Of a stretch of DNA of 64,000 bases, positions 34,005 through 57,664 are shown in pieces. The stretch's first letter is position 1, and the number at the start of each line of letters is the position of its first letter. The notes beneath the pieces are model-generated. The model had not been told where the DNA came from, made no database searches, and saw only the letters and a program-made list of their open reading frames with translations. Made by a program: the position numbers and the translations under genes. Source of the stretch: Lusitaniella coriacea LEGE 07157 (GTDB lineage Bacteria; Cyanobacteriota; Cyanobacteriia; Cyanobacteriales; Spirulinaceae); the NCBI RefSeq assembly GCF_015207425.1, contig NZ_JADEWZ010000017.1, positions 1 through 64,000 on the forward strand, given 5' to 3'.

Positions 34005-36803
34005 ATGAAAAAAAAACAGTTTTGGATATTATTAATCGTAGGAGTTTGTCTGTGGAGCCTTCTTTTCCTAATAAAACAAAGTTTCCCAACCCAGGCAAAA
34101 CTGAAAAATGACGCAGCAATTATTCACCCTAATTCTTTGTCTGAGAACCGACCGATCTCGTCACCCTTAAGAGCAAAGAAAAAAACAAAATCTTTTGATG
34201 AGATCGCGAAAAATACGGAAAAAATTTCAGGATTGTTTACGCTTTACCGAGACAAAGACAAAAATAAACTTTACTTAGAAATTCAACCCGAACAACTTAA
34301 CAAAAATTACCTGTGCATCATCACCCTTTCTCGTGGGATTGGGGATGGATTTTTGCTGAATGGGTTATCCCTGGATAATTTTTTGTTCCACTTCCGCCGC
34401 GTAGGAGATAAAGTTCACTTTGTTCTCCCCAATCTCAACTTTCGTGTGCGTTCTGACGAACCTTTGGGGAAACTACCGGAAAACTCCTTTAGCGATTCAG
34501 TTCTTTACGCACTCGATATTGTTAGCATTCATCCCACTCGAAAAACACTACTCATCGACCTCAGCGATTTATTTTTAGCACGCGACGATCTTCCCGGACT
34601 CAACCAACGTTTACCCTTTCTCCTCGGCGCGCCCTATACCCTAGATTCAGACAAGTCTTATTTTGGCGATGCGCGAGCCTTTCCCTTCAATCTAGAAATC
34701 GAGACAATTTATGGGTTCTCAGCCAAAGGAGAAGAAGCCTTTTTCAACTACCTACCCACTGTCCCTGACAGCCGTGCCTTTAATCTCTCTGTCCACTACA
34801 GCATTTCCGAACTATCCGCCAATAGCGATTATATTCCTCGTTTAGCGGACGATCGCGTGGGCTATTTTGTCACCACCTACAAAGACCTCTCTGATAATCG
34901 CCGCCGCGATGCCTTTGTGCGCTACATCAATCGCTGGAAATTGGAACCCTTAAACCCGCAAGAAGCCCTCTCTCCCCCCAAAAATCCCATTATTTTTTGG
35001 ATTGAAAATACCGTTCCTAAAGAATATCGCGCGGCGATCCGCGAAGGCATTCTCATCTGGAATTCTGCTTTTGAGCAGGCGGGATTTAAAAACGCCATTG
35101 AAGTTCGGCAAATGCCCGATAATGCCCCCTGGAACCCCGCAGACGTGCGCTACAACACCATTCGCTGGTCGAATTCCTTAGAAGCTGCATTTCTCGGTAT
35201 TGGTCCGTCTCACGTCAATCCCTTAACGGGACAAATTCTAGATGCAGATATTGTGATTGATGCCAATGTCGTGCGTTCTATTAAGGATGAGTACCGCAAT
35301 TTATCGAGTTTGAACGAGTCTACTCCTTCCCTCGCTGCTCGCAGTGCGAATTGGTGCGAAGGCGATTCACTATCCCCCATTTCAGTTGGGACAAAACTGC
35401 CACCATTTTTCCGCCAGTGGATGGAAGAACAAGATCTTTGTTTGAATTTGGCAGCACAACAGGAACTGACTGTCGGTCCCCTTGCTCTCTCCCTGCTGAA
35501 GGGGATTACTCCCACGAGTGCAACGATGGGAGAATACGTGCATCAATTTTTGCGTCACCTTGTTGCTCACGAAGTCGGACATACATTGGGTTTGAGGCAT
35601 AATTTCCACGGGAGTACGATGCTTGCACCCCACACCTTGAACGATACGAGTATTACGCATCAGGTGGGATTGGTCAGTTCGGTTATGGATTATGTCGGCG
35701 TTAACTTAGCACCCCAAGGAGTCGAACAGGGAGACTACTATCCTGTGATCGTGGGACCTTACGATCGATGGGCAATTGAGTACGGTTATAAATTTAGCGG
35801 AGAACGGTTCCCAACAATGGAGCGCCGTTTTTTGGAGCAAATTGCTCGCAGAGCGCAAGAGGAAGAGCTGGCTTATGCAACAGATGAAGATTTACGCGGT
35901 TTTCTCGACCCTGACGTGAATACCTTCGATTTGAGTAATAACGTACTGCTTTATGCCCAGTGGCAAATGGATAATGCGCGTCGGATGTGGGAGCGTTTGG
36001 AGAAGCGGTATCCCCAACAGGGATCGACCTATAGCGATATTCGCGCTCAGTTTAATACGGTCTTTTTCTATTATTTCCGACAGGCTCGTTTGGTGACAAA
36101 CTATATTGGTGGAAGTTCGTTTAACCGAGGTCATCCTAGCGATCCCAACGGACGCTTGCCTTTTGAACCCATTTCGGTGGAAAAGCAGCGCGAAGCACTA
36201 GAAGTATTGCAGAAGTACGTGTTTGCACCTGATTCTTTCATCTTTTCCCCAGACTTGCTCAATCAATTAGCGCCGTCTCGTTGGAATGATTTTGGATTGC
36301 AAGCGCGTTCTGGACTGGATTATCCGATTTTGGATAATATTTTGGCACTGCAAAAGCGCGTGTTGCGATCGCTTTTGTCTAATGCTCGTCTCAATCAATT
36401 GCGTAACTTGGAGTTGAAAACACAACCCGATCGCGCGCTGACCCTTCCAGAACTGTTTAACACCCTACAGGAGGGGATTTGGACGGAGGTGTTGCACCCC
36501 AATCGCGAAACCTTGAATATTTCCAGTATCCGCCGCGCGCTTCAGCGCGAATACCTTGATTTGTTGACTAAGATGGTGCTGCGACGTTCTGAGGTTCCTG
36601 AAGATGCGCGCACTCTCGCTTGGTATCAATTAAACCAGTTGGAAGGGAGTTTGGAGGAGGTGTTAGATCGCGCCGGAGATCGTTTGGATGGTTATACTCA
36701 AGCACATTTGTTTGAGACGCGCGATCGAATTCTCAAAGCACTCAATGCGCCGCTTCAATCCAAGCAGCAGTTGGGGAAGCAGGGAATAGGGAACAGGAAA
36801 TAG
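34005..36803 (+). CDS. large secreted or membrane-anchored zinc metalloprotease (DUF5117/DUF4953 type)
   Basis: The protein has 932 residues. Residues 1-27 form a signal peptide or signal anchor (FWILLIVGVCLWSLLFLI). The catalytic zinc site is HEVGHTLGLRH (His522, Glu523, His526, His532), an HExxHxxGxxH motif, followed by the Met-turn SSVMDYVG. The long N-terminal beta domain (about 60-330) and the C-terminal helical part (about 640-920) fit the zinc-dependent metalloprotease family with DUF5117 and DUF4953 regions. It should act outside the cytoplasm. The last residues (KQGIGNRK) are translated from a heptanucleotide repeat, so the C-terminus may be a recent extension. Confidence 0.88.
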   Translation: MKKKQFWILLIVGVCLWSLLFLIKQSFPTQAKLKNDAAIIHPNSLSENRPISSPLRAKKKTKSFDEIAKNTEKISGLFTLYRDKDKNKLYLEIQPEQLNKNYLCIITLSRGIGDGFLLNGLSLDNFLFHFRRVGDKVHFVLPNLNFRVRSDEPLGKLPENSFSDSVLYALDIVSIHPTRKTLLIDLSDLFLARDDLPGLNQRLPFLLGAPYTLDSDKSYFGDARAFPFNLEIETIYGFSAKGEEAFFNYLPTVPDSRAFNLSVHYSISELSANSDYIPRLADDRVGYFVTTYKDLSDNRRRDAFVRYINRWKLEPLNPQEALSPPKNPIIFWIENTVPKEYRAAIREGILIWNSAFEQAGFKNAIEVRQMPDNAPWNPADVRYNTIRWSNSLEAAFLGIGPSHVNPLTGQILDADIVIDANVVRSIKDEYRNLSSLNESTPSLAARSANWCEGDSLSPISVGTKLPPFFRQWMEEQDLCLNLAAQQELTVGPLALSLLKGITPTSATMGEYVHQFLRHLVAHEVGHTLGLRHNFHGSTMLAPHTLNDTSITHQVGLVSSVMDYVGVNLAPQGVEQGDYYPVIVGPYDRWAIEYGYKFSGERFPTMERRFLEQIARRAQEEELAYATDEDLRGFLDPDVNTFDLSNNVLLYAQWQMDNARRMWERLEKRYPQQGSTYSDIRAQFNTVFFYYFRQARLVTNYIGGSSFNRGHPSDPNGRLPFEPISVEKQREALEVLQKYVFAPDSFIFSPDLLNQLAPSRWNDFGLQARSGLDYPILDNILALQKRVLRSLLSNARLNQLRNLELKTQPDRALTLPELFNTLQEGIWTEVLHPNRETLNISSIRRALQREYLDLLTKMVLRRSEVPEDARTLAWYQLNQLEGSLEEVLDRAGDRLDGYTQAHLFETRDRILKALNAPLQSKQQLGKQGIGNRK

Positions 36804-36858
36804 GGAATAGGGAACAGCGCCTGACAGCAAGGCAGAGGGCAGAGGGCAGGTGGCAGAA
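36780..36858. repeat. STRR-like heptanucleotide repeats (GGGAAYA, then GGCAGAG)
   Basis: Imperfect copies of GGGAATA/GGGAACA run from about 36782 to 36818, followed by GGCAGAGGGCAGAGGGCAG at about 36831-36849. The first part overlaps the last codons and stop of the metalloprotease gene. The same unit forms a nine-copy tract at 57459-57521. Short tandem heptamers are a known feature of filamentous cyanobacteria. Confidence 0.75.
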
Positions 36859-39447: not shown

Positions 39448-39708
39448 ATGGACAGAGGTATGGGGAAGGCAGGGGAAGCGCTCAAACAAGTTCTGAAGAC
39501 TTACGGTATTAGTCAAAACAAACTTGCAGTTGCACTGGGAATCGAGCGAGGTAGTGTTTATCGCTGGGTTCACGAAATTCGAGATCCAACCGCAGAAACA
39601 GTTCGAGAAATTGTCACGGCACTCGGGAAACTCGAACCCTCAGCAGCCGGGAAGTTTATCGAGTTATATTTGGGAGATTTGGTGGAAGAGGAGGAGGAAG
39701 GATCTTAA
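39448..39708 (+). CDS. XRE-family helix-turn-helix regulator
   Basis: The 86-residue protein has the HTH at about residues 18-45 (YGISQNKLAVALGIERGSVY, then RWVHEIRDP). The remainder (ETVREIVTALGKLEPSAAGK, then FIELYLG) matches the compact cyanobacterial XRE family, whose members normally begin near MGKAGEALKQVL; a start at 39460 is therefore also possible. A perfect 28-bp palindrome lies 13 bp after its stop. The HEAT-NACHT gene begins 281 bp downstream on the same strand. Confidence 0.88.
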   Translation: MDRGMGKAGEALKQVLKTYGISQNKLAVALGIERGSVYRWVHEIRDPTAETVREIVTALGKLEPSAAGKFIELYLGDLVEEEEEGS

Positions 39709-39720
39709 TGAAATCTATCT

Positions 39721-39748
39721 CCCCTTCTCCCAAATTTGGGAGAAGGGG
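39721..39748 (+). terminator. perfect 28-bp palindrome, probable terminator and REP-like element
   Basis: CCCCTTCTCCCAAA is followed at once by its exact reverse complement TTTGGGAGAAGGGG, forming a 14-bp stem with no spare loop bases. Sequences of this form, followed by GCTGGGGGATGAGGG as here, recur in many cyanobacterial genomes. The position 13 bp after the XRE stop codon fits a terminator or mRNA-end structure. Confidence 0.7.
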
Positions 39749-39989
39749 CTGGGGGATGAGGGCGAGGTTTCAGTGCCTATCACGCCACTGCTATTGAAAT
39801 CGTGGACTAAATTTCGATGCAATCCCTTGTTTCTGGCGGAAAATGCTCTCCAGACAAGTATGGGGCAGATAAACTTTGTTTGAGAATTCAGACGTGAATC
39901 CGTAAACAACGGAGTGCAACTGTATAACCTAAAGTAGGCGCGCTTAAAAGTGCGAACGGGCTGCCAATTGCTGTGCTTTCCCCAGAAAA

Positions 39990-42767
39990 ATGCTTAGAAC
40001 GCTCCGCCAAACCCTCAACAAGTCTCGCTTTCTCCTTTTTTCCCTAACCCTGCTGCTCACTCTCCTCCTGGCTCTCCCTTGGGTGAGCGCCCAAGAACCG
40101 CCCAAACCCAAACCCTGGCAGATTAACGGCATCCTTGCCGCCCTCGATGATGGTTATCTTGAGGTGCGGGGATATGCTTTGCGGAAGTTAGCTGAATATG
40201 AAACCGAAGACTTGCTACCGTTGCTGGAGCAACCGGAGGAGATTGCACAAAAAGCTGCCACCCTCCTCAAGGATGAAAGCGTTGACTCAAATATTCGCAG
40301 CAGTGCAGCGAGGGTTTTGGGCGATTTAGGGGAAGCCGGAGCCAAATACGCTCCCGATATTCTCAACTTCCTCAAAGATGAAAGCGTTGACTCAAATATT
40401 CGCAGCAGTGCAGCGAGGGTTTTGGGCGATTTAGGGGAAGCCGGAGCCAAATACGCTCCCGATATTCTCAACTTCCTCAAAGATGAAAGCGTTGACTCAA
40501 ATATTCGCAGCAGAGCAGCGTGGGCTTTCGGCAATTTAGGGGAAGCTAGAGCCAAATACGCTCCCGATATTCTCAACTTCCTCAAGGATGAAAGCGTTGA
40601 CTCAAATGTTCGCGGCAGTGCAGCGTGGGCTTTGGGCAATTTAGGGGAAGCTGGAGCCAAATACGCTCCCGATATTCTCAACTTCCTCAAGGATGAAAGC
40701 GTTGACTCAAATGTTCGCGGCAGTGCAGCGTTGGCTTTCGGCAATTTAGGGGAAGCTGGAGCCAAATACGCTCCCGATATTCTCAACTTCCTCAAGGATG
40801 AAAGCGTTGACTCAAATGTTCGCGGCAGTGCAGCGTTGGCTTTCGGCAATTTAGGGGAAGCTGGAGCCAAATACGCTCCCGATATTCTCAACTTCCTCAA
40901 AGATGAAAGCGTTGACTCAAATATTCGCAGCAGTGCAGCGGGGGCTTTGGGTAAAATCGCACAACTACAACTGGATGAAGTTGTTATCGTCCTCGATTTC
41001 CTTTACGACGAGGGTAAATCAGGAGTTGCACAGTGGCGCTTCCAAACCTATTTCCTCGGAGGCGGCACGGAAGAGGTGAAAGCGCTGCTAACCTGGCTGG
41101 GCGAACCCAAAACAGTTCCCGAAAAACTCAACCACGAGGACGGCGTTAAAACCCTGAAAGTTTTCAAACGCGCTTGGAAAGCCAGCCCAGACTTAGAAGG
41201 AGTGAGAGACGACTTAGCCCAAAAAATTGCTACCGTCGCCGCCTATAAAAAAGTCTCCTGGCAACCTAAAGATATTGTCTTGCTGCAAACCCACTACAAC
41301 AACCTCAAAGCAACTCATCCCAACTCTGCTAATTCGGTATTGCGAGTTATCGAAAATCTGGAGTTTTGGAAGTGGTTTTTCCGCGCCCGCAATCTTATCC
41401 TGGCTCACGCCTTCCTCTGGTTGCTGCTCATCTTCGCCTACCCCAAATATCCCCAAATCCAGGCAATCTTCTTCTGGAACCCGTGGGTGCGGAAGTTTTT
41501 GGGCTTTGGTTATGTGGGTTTTCTCCTCGCCTGGGTTCCCTTCCTCCGCCGCAAATTGTTTGAACCCTTCAAACCCTCCCTTCTCGCTGATGCCAAATTG
41601 GACGATTTTGAGTCCCGTGCCTACTTCCCCGAATCCAAGGTTGCATTTAAGGGAGAAATTCAACCCATCACCCAAGTCCTGCCCAAAATTGAAGGACAAA
41701 TTATCCTTGTGGGCGATTCCGGCTTGGGAAAATCGATGTTTCTGCGTCATCTGGCAAACACTGCGCCGCGCATCGCCGTCTATTTACCCGCCCGCAAGTG
41801 CGAAAATGGCGTAATCGCAGCAATTCAAGCCAAGCTGCACGGACAAGCCCAGGATGAGGCATTTCTCAAAAACTTGATTTATAGCGGCGCGATTGATATT
41901 TGCATTGACGGACTCAACGAAGTCACCGCCGACACGCGGGCGAAAATCTCTCAGTTTGTCGAAAGCTATTTTCGCGGCAATATCATTATGACCACGCAAC
42001 CCCTCGAATGGATTCCGCCTTCCACTGCAAAGACTTATACTTTGCAATCCCTGCAACCCCAACAAATCGAGCAGTTTTTACGCTCTCGTTCCCAACTCCT
42101 TCCTCAAAATGCCCCCGTTCGAGATGCAGCCTACGAACGAGCGTGTAAGACTTATCTTTCCAAAATGCTCGATCCCCAACAATCCCCCGAAGAACTCGCC
42201 GCCGCGCAACATATCCTCTCCAATCCGATGGATTTAACTCTAGTGGCGCAAATGCTCTCCCAAGGCAAAAGTCCCGATCTTTTCCACCTGCAAGAACAGC
42301 AATATACACTCATGGCGGCAGAGTTTCACGAAGAACGCGGCTATGATTTTCCTTTGAAAAAGTTCTCCCAAGCCGTCTACGAAATGCGCCTCAAGGATGA
42401 AAATACGCTCCCGGCGGAGGAGTTTTACCCCGAACTGAAAAGCCTTGAAGATGAGAAGTACAAAATGGTCATCAGCCGCCAGTGGCAAAATACTGAAGGG
42501 GAACCGCATCAAGAATGGTATTTCCGCCACGACAAAATTATGGACTTTTTTCTCGTGCAAAATTTCCTCGGCGATGGCAATGAGGTTGAAGCCCGTTTGG
42601 TGGACTGCATGGGAGATCCTCGCTTTCGCGGCGCGTACTTTTTACTCGCCTTGTTGTTGGAGTTAGATGCAGCGAAGGATTTACGCGAAAAGTTGATTCA
42701 ATACGCTGCCGATACGAAGGATCATACGGTGAGCGATACGTTTGTGCAGTTGTTACGAACCCGATAA
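39990..42767 (+). CDS. membrane-anchored HEAT-repeat NACHT-type NTPase
   Basis: The protein has 925 residues. An N-terminal hydrophobic segment (about 14-34, ending in a likely signal cleavage site VSAQ) precedes HEAT-type helical repeats. Six complete units of 35 residues (98-307) and a partial seventh are almost identical at DNA level. Two hydrophobic segments follow at about 468-486 and 503-520. The NTPase domain has Walker A GDSGLGKS (575-582) and Walker B IDICIDGLNEV (about 633-643), followed by a helical region to the end. This is a STAND/NACHT-like design, in which the repeats sense and the NTPase oligomerises. Such proteins include defence and signalling factors; the function here is unknown. 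An XRE gene lies upstream. Confidence 0.82.
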   Translation: MLRTLRQTLNKSRFLLFSLTLLLTLLLALPWVSAQEPPKPKPWQINGILAALDDGYLEVRGYALRKLAEYETEDLLPLLEQPEEIAQKAATLLKDESVDSNIRSSAARVLGDLGEAGAKYAPDILNFLKDESVDSNIRSSAARVLGDLGEAGAKYAPDILNFLKDESVDSNIRSRAAWAFGNLGEARAKYAPDILNFLKDESVDSNVRGSAAWALGNLGEAGAKYAPDILNFLKDESVDSNVRGSAALAFGNLGEAGAKYAPDILNFLKDESVDSNVRGSAALAFGNLGEAGAKYAPDILNFLKDESVDSNIRSSAAGALGKIAQLQLDEVVIVLDFLYDEGKSGVAQWRFQTYFLGGGTEEVKALLTWLGEPKTVPEKLNHEDGVKTLKVFKRAWKASPDLEGVRDDLAQKIATVAAYKKVSWQPKDIVLLQTHYNNLKATHPNSANSVLRVIENLEFWKWFFRARNLILAHAFLWLLLIFAYPKYPQIQAIFFWNPWVRKFLGFGYVGFLLAWVPFLRRKLFEPFKPSLLADAKLDDFESRAYFPESKVAFKGEIQPITQVLPKIEGQIILVGDSGLGKSMFLRHLANTAPRIAVYLPARKCENGVIAAIQAKLHGQAQDEAFLKNLIYSGAIDICIDGLNEVTADTRAKISQFVESYFRGNIIMTTQPLEWIPPSTAKTYTLQSLQPQQIEQFLRSRSQLLPQNAPVRDAAYERACKTYLSKMLDPQQSPEELAAAQHILSNPMDLTLVAQMLSQGKSPDLFHLQEQQYTLMAAEFHEERGYDFPLKKFSQAVYEMRLKDENTLPAEEFYPELKSLEDEKYKMVISRQWQNTEGEPHQEWYFRHDKIMDFFLVQNFLGDGNEVEARLVDCMGDPRFRGAYFLLALLLELDAAKDLREKLIQYAADTKDHTVSDTFVQLLRTR
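40281..40946 (+). repeat. six near-identical 105-bp tandem repeats in the HEAT region
   Basis: Units begin GTTGACTCAAAT at 40281, 40386, 40491, 40596, 40701 and 40806, and a partial seventh begins at 40911. Each encodes VDSN(I/V)R(S/G)SAAxxxGxLGE, then A(G/R)AKYAPDILNFLKDES. Neighbouring units differ at only a few bases, mostly in the variable residues after SAA. That points to recent unequal crossing-over or gene conversion. Confidence 0.95.
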
Positions 42768-45924: not shown

Positions 45925-47730
45925 ATGGTTTATTGCCTCAATCCCACTTGCACTCAGCCTCACAGTCCCCTCGATAGCCAATTTTGTCAAACCTGCGGCA
46001 CGAGATTACTGCTGGGAAACCGCTATCATCCCCTCAAACTCATCGGTCAAGGCGGTTTTGGGCGCACCTACCTCGCTGAAGATTTACAAAAACCTTCACA
46101 ACCTCATTGTGTCATCAAGCAATTTTATCCCGCAGGACTAAATAATGCCCAAAAAGCGGAAGAACTCTTTGAACTCGAAGCGCTTCGCCTGGAACAGTTG
46201 GGTTCGCATTCCCAAATTCCCATCCTCTACGCGCACTTAGAACAGGACAATCGTAAGTATATCGTCCAAGAGTTTATCGACGGGAAAGATTTAGCCCAAG
46301 AACTCAAAGAACGCGGAAAGTTCGACGAAGCTGAGATTAGAAGTCTATTGCAGGATTTGCTTCCCGTTCTGCAATTTCTCCACCAAGGGGAAGTCATTCA
46401 TCGGGATATCAAGCCTGAAAATATTATTCGTCGCCGCCATAACAAAAAACTGGTGTTAGTGGATTTTGGTGCGGCAAAATACGCCACCACAACGGCTTTA
46501 GCTCAAACGGGAACGTTAATTGGCAGTGTAGAATATGTCGCTCCCGAACAGCTTAAAGGTAGAGCTGTTTTCGCCAGCGATTTGTATAGTTTAGGCGTAA
46601 CTTGCCTACACCTACTCGTGCAAATATCCCCTTTCGATTTGTTCGACCCTTATGAAAATACCTGGATATGGCGACAGTACCTCGTTGATAATCCCGTGAG
46701 CGAGGAGTTGGGGCAAATTTTGGATAAGATGGTGCAAAATGCATTGCGCGATCGTTGGCGAACAGCAGAGGAAGTACTGACTGCGCTGAATTCCTCAAAC
46801 CCCGTGAAATTCGCAAATCAAGCAGTCGCTCAATCTAAACAGCACATTCAACCCCAAACGCCGACTCTACAAATCTTTGAGTTTGAGGTCGTAACGATAT
46901 CTCTGAACCAGAGATGGTTTCGCAAAAAAAGAGAATGGCATCGTCGTCTTGAACAAGCTGAATATTTTGCAGATAACTTAGGAAGCAATGTCTTCCTGGA
47001 AATGGTTGATCTTCCTGGTGGCTGGTTTGTTATGGGTTCGCCAGAGAGGGAAGGGAGTAACAACGAAAAGCCTCAACATCAAGTTACCGTTCGACCCTTT
47101 TTTCTAGGCAAATATCCCATTACTCAGGAACAGTGGCAAGCTGTAGTCGGATTGCCTAAAGTAAAACGCACGCTCGATCGCAACCCATCTCAGTTTAAAG
47201 GATTTAAATGGTTAAAGCGCCCGGTAGAGAATGTTTCTTGGCTCGATGCGGTGGAATTCTGCGAGAGATTATCCAGGCGTACAGGACGCAAATATCGACT
47301 TCCCAGCGAGGCGGAGTGGGAGTATGCTTGTCGCGCGGGGACGACAACACCCTTTCATTTTGGCGAGACAATAACGACGGATTTGGCAAATTACGATGGG
47401 AATTATGCCGATGCCAATGTGCCGAAAGGAAAATATCGCCAAGAAACAACAGCAGTAGGAAGTTTTTTCCCCAATGGCTTTGGTCTGTACGATATGCACG
47501 GGAATGTCTGGGAATGGTGCGCCGACCATTGGCACAAGAATTATGAGGGAGCGCCAAATGATGGAACGATATGGCTGAGTCGCTATCGAGGCTCTCAACG
47601 GCTGCTGCGGGGGGGTTCCTGGTACGATGTTCCTGGGGATTGTCGCTCTGCGTATCGCACTAGGAATATTCCAGGCAAACGCTCTGCCTGTTTTGGGTTT
47701 CGGGTTGCGTGTGCGGCGGCGGGGACTTAA
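45925..47730 (+). CDS. Ser/Thr protein kinase with zinc-ribbon head and C-terminal FGE-sulfatase-like domain
   Basis: The protein has 601 residues. A Cys4 ribbon comes first (CLNPTC, then CQTC). The kinase domain has the Gly loop GQGGFGRTYLAED near residue 41, the catalytic loop HRDIKPENI (His159, Arg160, Asp161) and DFGAAK. From about residue 365 a formylglycine-generating-enzyme-like domain follows (GGWFVMGSPEREGSNNEKPQ, then YRLPSEAEWEYACRAG, then NVWEWCADHWHKN and GFRVAC). In true FGE two cysteines catalyse oxidation (CxxxxC); here the second position reads Arg (CRSAYR). It is probably a binding module and not an FGE. The likely role is signalling. Confidence 0.9.
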   Translation: MVYCLNPTCTQPHSPLDSQFCQTCGTRLLLGNRYHPLKLIGQGGFGRTYLAEDLQKPSQPHCVIKQFYPAGLNNAQKAEELFELEALRLEQLGSHSQIPILYAHLEQDNRKYIVQEFIDGKDLAQELKERGKFDEAEIRSLLQDLLPVLQFLHQGEVIHRDIKPENIIRRRHNKKLVLVDFGAAKYATTTALAQTGTLIGSVEYVAPEQLKGRAVFASDLYSLGVTCLHLLVQISPFDLFDPYENTWIWRQYLVDNPVSEELGQILDKMVQNALRDRWRTAEEVLTALNSSNPVKFANQAVAQSKQHIQPQTPTLQIFEFEVVTISLNQRWFRKKREWHRRLEQAEYFADNLGSNVFLEMVDLPGGWFVMGSPEREGSNNEKPQHQVTVRPFFLGKYPITQEQWQAVVGLPKVKRTLDRNPSQFKGFKWLKRPVENVSWLDAVEFCERLSRRTGRKYRLPSEAEWEYACRAGTTTPFHFGETITTDLANYDGNYADANVPKGKYRQETTAVGSFFPNGFGLYDMHGNVWEWCADHWHKNYEGAPNDGTIWLSRYRGSQRLLRGGSWYDVPGDCRSAYRTRNIPGKRSACFGFRVACAAAGT

Positions 47731-57458: not shown

Positions 57459-57521
57459 GGGAATAGGGAATAGGGAATAGGGAACAGGGAACAGGGAACA
57501 GGGAACAGGGAATAGGGAACA
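57459..57521. repeat. nine tandem heptanucleotides GGGAA(T/C)A (STRR)
   Basis: Nine exact heptamers run without a break: three GGGAATA, four GGGAACA, one GGGAATA and one GGGAACA. It is the cleanest STRR tract in the window and lies in the 248-bp gap between the convergent cyclophilin and peroxidase genes. The rest of that gap holds runs such as CTCCGTGTCTCCC. Confidence 0.9.
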
Positions 57522-57664
57522 GTCATTAGCCGTCTCCGTGTCATCCAAAAACTCCCCCTGCTTCCCCAGCTTCCTCTGCTCCCCCCTCTCCGTGTCTCCC
57601 GGTCACTGAGCGTGTCGAAGTGCCGTGTCATCGAGAGCGTCACCTCAACCCTATGCCCAACAGC

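Follow-up and report, generated by a model that had tools for sequence, protein, structure and literature searches.

The window analysed here comprises 64,000 nucleotides of Lusitaniella coriacea LEGE 07157 (Cyanobacteriota, Spirulinaceae; contig NZ_JADEWZ010000017.1, positions 1 to 64,000), and our subject is one large gene in it, whose product joins an array of near-identical HEAT repeats to a NACHT-type NTPase. A sequence-only reading had brought together, under positions 39448-42767, a HEAT-NACHT protein with a signal-type N-terminus and two hydrophobic segments, an XRE regulator and a palindrome. All of these elements are present (Table 1), but the stretch spans two genes, an XRE open reading frame (ORF) and, 281 bp further on the same strand, the HEAT-NACHT ORF, which begins with ATG; the XRE gene and the palindrome are features separate from it.

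Table 1. Features of the HEAT-NACHT locus in window coordinates (aa, amino acid positions in the HEAT-NACHT protein; TM, transmembrane; AF2, AlphaFold2; NBD, nucleotide-binding domain; HD1, helical domain 1; WHD, winged-helix domain)
Feature	Coordinates	Strand	Remarks
Whole gene: signal peptide, HEAT array, linker, TM, NACHT	39990-42767	+	925 aa, stop included; >80 homologous loci
Sec-type signal peptide, aa 1-34	39990-40091	+	predicted cleavage between PWVSA and QE
N-terminal solenoid cap (WQINGILAALDD...), aa 35-102, with partial first repeat	40092-40295	+	
Six full 35-aa HEAT units, aa 103-312	40296-40925	+	hypervariable codons 2, 3, 6, 33, 34 per unit
Partial last repeat and C-terminal array cap, aa 313-337	40926-41000	+	
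Helical linker domain, aa 338-443	41001-41318	+	missing in the L108/L112 subfamily
43-residue helix, aa 444-486: stalk and single predicted TM helix (~aa 467-486)	41319-41447	+	from hydropathy, conservation and AF2
Conserved juxtamembrane element (FFWNPWVRKFLGFGYVGFLLAWVPFLRRKLFEPF), aa 487-535	41448-41594	+	short broken helices, basic residues on flanks
NACHT NBD-HD1-WHD and C-terminal helices, aa 566-925	41685-42764	+	
Walker A GDSGLGKS, aa 575-582	41712-41735	+	G575, G578, G580 and K581 invariant in 55 homologues
Walker B ICIDGLNE, aa 637-644	41898-41921	+	aa 639-644 (IDGLNE) invariant in 55 homologues
XRE ORF, 86 aa, HTH_3	39448-39708	+	separate gene
Perfect 28-bp palindrome	39721-39748		between the XRE and HEAT-NACHT genes

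Turnover and variable positions of the HEAT repeats

The HEAT repeats of the ORF give strong Pfam matches and form by far the strongest tandem array of the window (Tandem Repeats Finder: 40264-40951, period 105, 6.6 copies, 96% matches, score 1201). The near-identity of six 35-residue units, which the sequence-only reading had pointed out, is confirmed: the complete units are 93-100% identical in DNA, with partial units at either end, although in a draft assembly of 114 contigs the unit count could be affected by repeat collapse. Overall the units share 87.6% of their amino acids and 94.5% of their DNA, above the within-array identity of >85% that marks the fungal type of repeat array. No further copy of the unit was found elsewhere in the own genome.

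A scan of the genome collection with the non-repeat C-terminal part of the protein returned 106 related stretches, of which 80 were kept. Among 43 complete homologues, compared between species, arrays hold between 1 and 14 units (median 9). Some of these counts may be lowered by assembly collapse (the low-coverage L042 and L053 are suspect), and the differences were therefore judged also on better assemblies, in which L034 and L035 have 8 versus 13 units and L093 and L100 have 10 versus 7, and on the turnover of the units themselves. Unit DNA identity is 87% within arrays versus 71% between arrays. The homologues L045 and L052 have cores that are 95.5% identical and 11 units each, yet their arrays differ: most units have a counterpart with 92-95% identity in their own array, but reach no more than 88% with any unit of the other. 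Whole arrays have been replaced as well, because L051 and L061, with cores 94% identical over 1398 bases, have 35-aa versus 31-aa units, and L057 (31-aa units) is sister to L048 (35-aa units) in the tree. The comparison thus shows the arrays to evolve in concert: recombination duplicates, removes, homogenises and replaces their units. It agrees with the earlier view of the repeats as prone to recombination and inconstant in number, since counts differ between homologues and units turn over between relatives whose cores are 94-96% identical.

Change within the units is not evenly spread. In 33 arrays built of 35-aa units, within-array differences are most frequent at five positions, 34, 6, 3, 2 and 33, which all lie on helix A in the predicted model. 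By residue alignment to alphaRep proteins they correspond to alphaRep positions 19, 26, 23, 22 and 18. The designers of the alphaReps, after a study of natural repeats, randomised six positions (18, 19, 22, 23, 26 and 30; PMC3754942); our five are thus five of these six, alphaRep position 30 being conserved here, and the chance of such an agreement lies between 3e-6 (all five the same) and 2e-5 (five within six). At the five positions the proportion of nonsynonymous differences (pN) is 0.422 against an array-wide proportion of synonymous differences (pS) of 0.200, a ratio of 2.1 (95% bootstrap 1.8-2.5), whereas at the other unit positions pN is 0.105 and pN/pS about 0.5; 31 of the 33 arrays agree. 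Arrays of 31-aa units show a like pattern, and the ratio is 2.2 when the positions are chosen by split halves. The window array alone has a pS of 0.048 and a pN of 0.164 at the five positions versus 0.037 elsewhere. In 55 unit pairs that are only 1-4 bases apart, the five codons carry 62 nonsynonymous changes to 1 synonymous change, and the other codons 46 to 32.

The statistics show diversifying selection on five surface positions per unit, and the combined pattern is the signature of a diversifying recognition surface; recognition by the array is well supported. The suggestion that the sensor surface could vary is upheld by this concentration of change at five positions. Array length does vary as had been supposed, but the diversifying change at fixed positions of the binding face is more telling.

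The NACHT core and its relation to the membrane

The Pfam NACHT match of the protein reaches 18.2 bits and stays below the cut-off of 26.7. Because Foldseek matched the full-length model to generic HEAT solenoids only, the core was folded alone with 55 homologues (mean predicted local distance difference test score 82.5). This model matches NLRC4 with Z 21.4 over 363 residues (root-mean-square deviation 4.3), NLRP3 with Z 19.3 and NOD2 with Z 17.9, and the first 27 structure matches are all NLR-family NACHT proteins. The NBD-HD1-WHD fold is present, as are Walker A and an acidic Walker B (DG-x-[DN]-E), and the residues of the Walker A, Walker B, SNPMDL and FRHDK motifs of the NTPase and WHD are invariant or nearly so in the 55 homologues. 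The predicted structure settles the membership among NACHT-type STAND proteins despite the weak Pfam score, as the earlier description of the NTPase had anticipated, and the motifs are kept throughout the homologues. The protein ends with C-terminal helices after the WHD, and nothing in it resembles an effector domain.

The N-terminal hydrophobic segment ends in LPWVSA, followed by QE, and a cleavage motif of the form [PSA]WV[NS]A follows the first hydrophobic stretch in 41 of the 45 homologues with a complete N-terminus, which bears out the assignment of a signal-type N-terminus. The Rhizobiaceae and Bacteroidia homologues have different, signal-peptide-like N-termini. The NTPase contains ten times as much cysteine as the array side (0.90% versus 0.09%). 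Because 41 of 45 sequences keep the motif, export of the array is probable.

Beyond the array lie two hydrophobic segments, each about 17-18 residues long (aa ~469-486 and ~503-519). Both of them had been noted before, but only the first looks like a true TM helix: in the AF2 model it sits in one continuous helix of 43 residues (aa 444-486), whereas the second is modelled as a helix of eight residues (508-515) ended by Pro517. Conserved basic residues bracket the second segment (R501-K502 and R520-R521-K522), and the juxtamembrane element that contains it is as conserved as the NBD (0.776 versus 0.784). A domain that uses ATP must be cytoplasmic; with an exported array, an odd number of membrane crossings is therefore needed. 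The model suggests one TM helix and a juxtamembrane element lying in the plane of the membrane on its cytoplasmic side; motif conservation and AF2 agree on such a single-pass receptor, but there is also the second hydrophobic segment, which could form a hairpin with the first. The membrane in question may be the plasma membrane or the thylakoid. That the layout is unusual stands, and it is conserved across the family.

Distribution of the family and gene neighbourhood

Nearly all homologues occur in Nostocales and other filamentous cyanobacteria, at 53-74% identity, and one Rhizobiaceae and one Bacteroidia genome carry homologues. The occurrence is patchy, since the gene is present in 45 of 391 sampled genomes of the order to which the window belongs, and the 12 other genomes of the window's family all lack it. 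In most full-length members the domains run in the order signal peptide, HEAT array, (linker), TM, NACHT, so that homologues with the same domain order do exist, as the sequence-only reading had proposed to look for. The same architecture was seen in Rhizobiaceae and Bacteroidia (L103, L097), one Bacteroidia contig holding two genes. Only four plasmid records contain relatives (Calothrix, Mesorhizobium, Rhizobium), and the family is therefore not chiefly plasmid-borne; the Rhizobium and Mesorhizobium plasmids (H2-H4) carry relatives of the NTPase core. No relative was found in viral contigs.

Several variants depart from the common type. A subfamily (L108, L110, L112, L113) has degenerate repeats and lacks the linker. 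In L076, L078, L080, L081, L086 and L090 a second P-loop region is fused after the NACHT domain, and the adjacent downstream gene of this sub-branch gives weak, sub-threshold helix-turn-helix and nSTAND2 matches; in L076 (4390-6974) the end of the second P-loop region overlaps an adjacent P-loop gene, and the region has no significant match in Pfam or NCBIfam. L111 and L117 possess a C-terminal helical module (ELLDNPYVNV...EGW) in common with pentapeptide-repeat proteins and a Band_7 protein, for which there is no Pfam model. The own genome contains a paralogue on contig C5 (L105, 3648-6011) with a signal peptide, a degenerate HEAT array and the same linker, without TM-NACHT; this ectodomain-only protein adjoins a Ser/Thr kinase-WD40 gene.

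The XRE gene and the palindrome do lie upstream as had been described, but no XRE relative is found near any of the neighbourhoods of about 80 homologues, and similar palindromes occur elsewhere in the genome. Seven more sequences dispersed over the same genome match the XRE protein, six of them with 56-62% identity and one with 41%; copies were seen at C3:20913-21131 and on C5, C6, C14 and C15, and palindromes related to the one in the window stand on both sides of the C3 copy (C3:20121 and 21285). This hints that XRE gene and palindrome form a small unit that is mobile or dispersed. The palindrome was rejected as a specific operator, and we regard neither it nor the XRE gene as part of the HEAT-NACHT system. 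At two loci of family members the DUF2358 gene stands without XRE and NACHT genes; no clean empty site is readable there, because the gene has other neighbours at both.

Among 147 neighbour proteins of about 40 loci, PADLOC gave sporadic matches only, at most 3 per model, which does not indicate a defence island. The neighbours are mostly housekeeping or unrelated genes, so the clustering with known defence genes that had been envisaged is not seen. Since the single-NACHT type also has no conserved partner gene, the HEAT-NACHT gene is probably self-sufficient. The protein itself matches no STAND model of PADLOC, only HEAT-ARM_XIII (24.5 bits) and tm_HEPN (E 0.035), both weakly, and in NCBIfam it reaches 15 bits with EruA against a cut-off of 1000.

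Elsewhere in the window, heptanucleotide tandem repeats (GGGAACA-type) lie between genes at 57459-57522 and 36774-36814. An ORF of 601 aa (45925-47730), judged by eye from its translation, combines a zinc-ribbon-like N-terminus, a Ser/Thr protein kinase and a C-terminus resembling formylglycine-generating enzyme.

Interpretation and comparison with known systems

On balance we lean towards an NLR/STAND-type receptor with inverted domain order that crosses the membrane once: a diversifying extracytoplasmic HEAT solenoid would be mounted on a cytoplasmic NACHT switch and serve the recognition of foreign or non-self molecules. The signal peptide would export the N-terminal, alphaRep-like solenoid, a modular binding surface, to the extracytoplasmic side, and the single TM helix (aa ~467-486) would relay a signal to the juxtamembrane element and the NACHT switch. 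By analogy with NLR and STAND proteins, binding of a ligand may release the NACHT module, which would then bind ATP and oligomerise at the membrane. Because no effector domain was found, the output would have to come from the juxtamembrane element acting on the membrane (permeabilisation, cell death) or from recruited partners. The most likely use would be the recognition of changing non-self molecules, such as surface proteins of phages, predators or competitors, or of non-kin cells; the role in defence or immunity is likewise inferred. More tentatively, and at somewhat less than an even chance, the protein could be described as a bacterial cell-surface NLR whose solenoid is the natural counterpart of an alphaRep library, constantly re-assembled from near-identical units and diversified on its binding face into a surface that differs from lineage to lineage, and thus as a fungal non-self NLR turned inside out.

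Several observations weigh against the receptor that we favour. If both hydrophobic segments span the membrane, the NTPase and the array share one side. Unit pairs share ancestry, so the pair counts behind the selection statistics are not independent, and pS at the hypervariable codons themselves is 0.279, which lowers the ratio to 1.5. Natural alphaRep-like HEAT repeats generally vary at these positions, and the pattern therefore proves a surface of the binding type, not immunity. The subfamily L108-L113 has no near-identical repeats. Finally, neither a recognisable effector nor a conserved partner or a defence neighbourhood was found.

The strongest alternative, though we think it unlikely, is that the arrays serve the recognition of kin or partners and not the defence against phages: in cyanobacteria that grow as filaments or mats they would identify the strain and govern compatibility, aggregation or symbiosis. 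The hosts are mostly multicellular and often filamentous, arrays differ between very close relatives, no defence-island context exists, and the fungal HET-E/HET-D arrays work in this way (PMC4986451). However, the patchy occurrence (45 of 391 genomes) fits defence equally well, and alleles were compared here between species only.

Less probable still is a membrane-anchored cytoplasmic NLR, without a working signal peptide or with the two segments forming a hairpin, in which both array and NTPase would face intracellular ligands. The two hydrophobic segments, with basic residues at both ends of the pair, would suit such a hairpin, and those bacterial NACHT and Avs proteins that have been characterised detect phage products in the cytoplasm (PMC10907252). 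Against this stand the -3/-1 cleavage motif, which is kept in nearly all complete N-termini, the other signal-peptide-like N-termini of other phyla, the depletion of cysteine on the array side, and the AF2 model, which forms no second helix of TM length.

It is also conceivable, at a distinctly low probability, that slippage and gene conversion have homogenised the array neutrally, without any recognition, and that the protein is an envelope scaffold or a housekeeping ATPase. Slippage alone can yield near-identical repeats, and the gene is solitary amid housekeeping neighbours; yet the nonsynonymous excess is limited to one helical face, both in pN/pS and in the changes that separate near-identical pairs, and the switch motifs of the NLR type are conserved. 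A two-gene defence module under the control of the XRE protein, suggested by its position closely upstream on the same strand, is very improbable given the missing XRE relatives at other loci, the further matches in the genome and the palindrome between the two genes; as a property of the family it is contradicted. Diversification by a diversity-generating retroelement (DGR), as in NACHT-CLec sensors, can practically be dismissed: DGR-diversified NACHT sensors are known from multicellular bacteria (PMC10907252) and the own genome has two reverse-transcriptase genes, but these lie on other contigs, no template copy of the unit exists elsewhere in the genome, and the 55 closely similar unit pairs show base changes of all types.

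To our knowledge, NLR-type receptors are regarded as intracellular. If the favoured single-pass receptor is correct, an evolving repeat sensor outside the membrane joined to an NLR switch inside constitutes a new receptor layout, bacteria may have a cell-surface version of the NLR-type recognition receptor, the concerted, diversifying repeat pattern of fungal NLRs would extend to bacteria, and the arrays would represent a natural library of alphaRep-like binders. The proposal is directly testable: the ectodomain is nearly free of cysteine, the NTPase is easy to inactivate, and the candidate binding positions have been identified. A literature search, for which subscription journals lay largely out of reach, turned up no account of a protein built in the order signal peptide-HEAT-TM-NACHT.

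Among known systems, the bacterial bNACHT and Avs proteins likewise combine a NACHT-type STAND NTPase with a repeat sensor. They are cytoplasmic, however, with an N-terminal effector and a C-terminal sensor, whereas the HEAT-NACHT protein has its sensor array at the N-terminus and no effector. Membership in this group was rejected on architecture, curated models and defence neighbourhood alike. The conflict systems of multicellular prokaryotes (Kaur et al. 2020, 2021; PMC7159879, PMC8195603) share STAND NTPases with superstructure-forming repeats and the occurrence in multicellular cyanobacteria, but no MoxR, vWA, TRADD-N or effector-adaptor components are found in or beside the HEAT-NACHT gene, and a term search of both texts gave no match for its architecture. 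A further point of similarity is the C-terminal module that two distant family members, L111 and L117, have in common with pentapeptide-repeat and Band_7 proteins. NACHT-CLec sensors (PMC10907252) also place a diversified sensor on a NACHT domain in multicellular bacteria, and some are predicted to face the periplasm; their C-type lectin is diversified by reverse transcription, in contrast to the unit turnover and point change seen here. The alphaRep binders and natural thermostable HEAT-like repeats possess the same fold (Z 16-20), strong sequence similarity (E 7e-56) and the same variable positions 18, 19, 22, 23 and 26 (PMC3754942), although the 31-aa units of the alphaReps are engineered, with random positions, and the HEAT-NACHT arrays consist of natural units of 35 or 31 aa in a receptor-like protein. 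With animal NLRC4, NLRP3 and NOD2 the protein has the NBD-HD1-WHD fold over about 350 residues in common (Z 18-21), at 9-13% identity; it differs in its N-terminal sensor and intervening membrane segment and in the lack of CARD/PYD and leucine-rich repeats.

In the way it works, the HEAT-NACHT protein comes closest to those fungal NLRs whose repeats are highly conserved within an array, and in which concerted evolution and length polymorphism go together with selection at few codons per unit (PMC4986451). Like the HNWD family (Podospora HET-E/HET-D/HET-R; PMC4986451), it combines a NACHT switch with near-identical tandem repeats that evolve in concert, are polymorphic in number and are under diversifying selection at few fixed codons. 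Order and topology differ: the fungal proteins are intracellular and have WD40, ANK or TPR repeats C-terminal to the NACHT domain and an effector at the N-terminus, while the HEAT-NACHT protein has no recognised effector and carries its HEAT repeats at the N-terminus, behind a signal peptide, with a TM helix before the NACHT domain.

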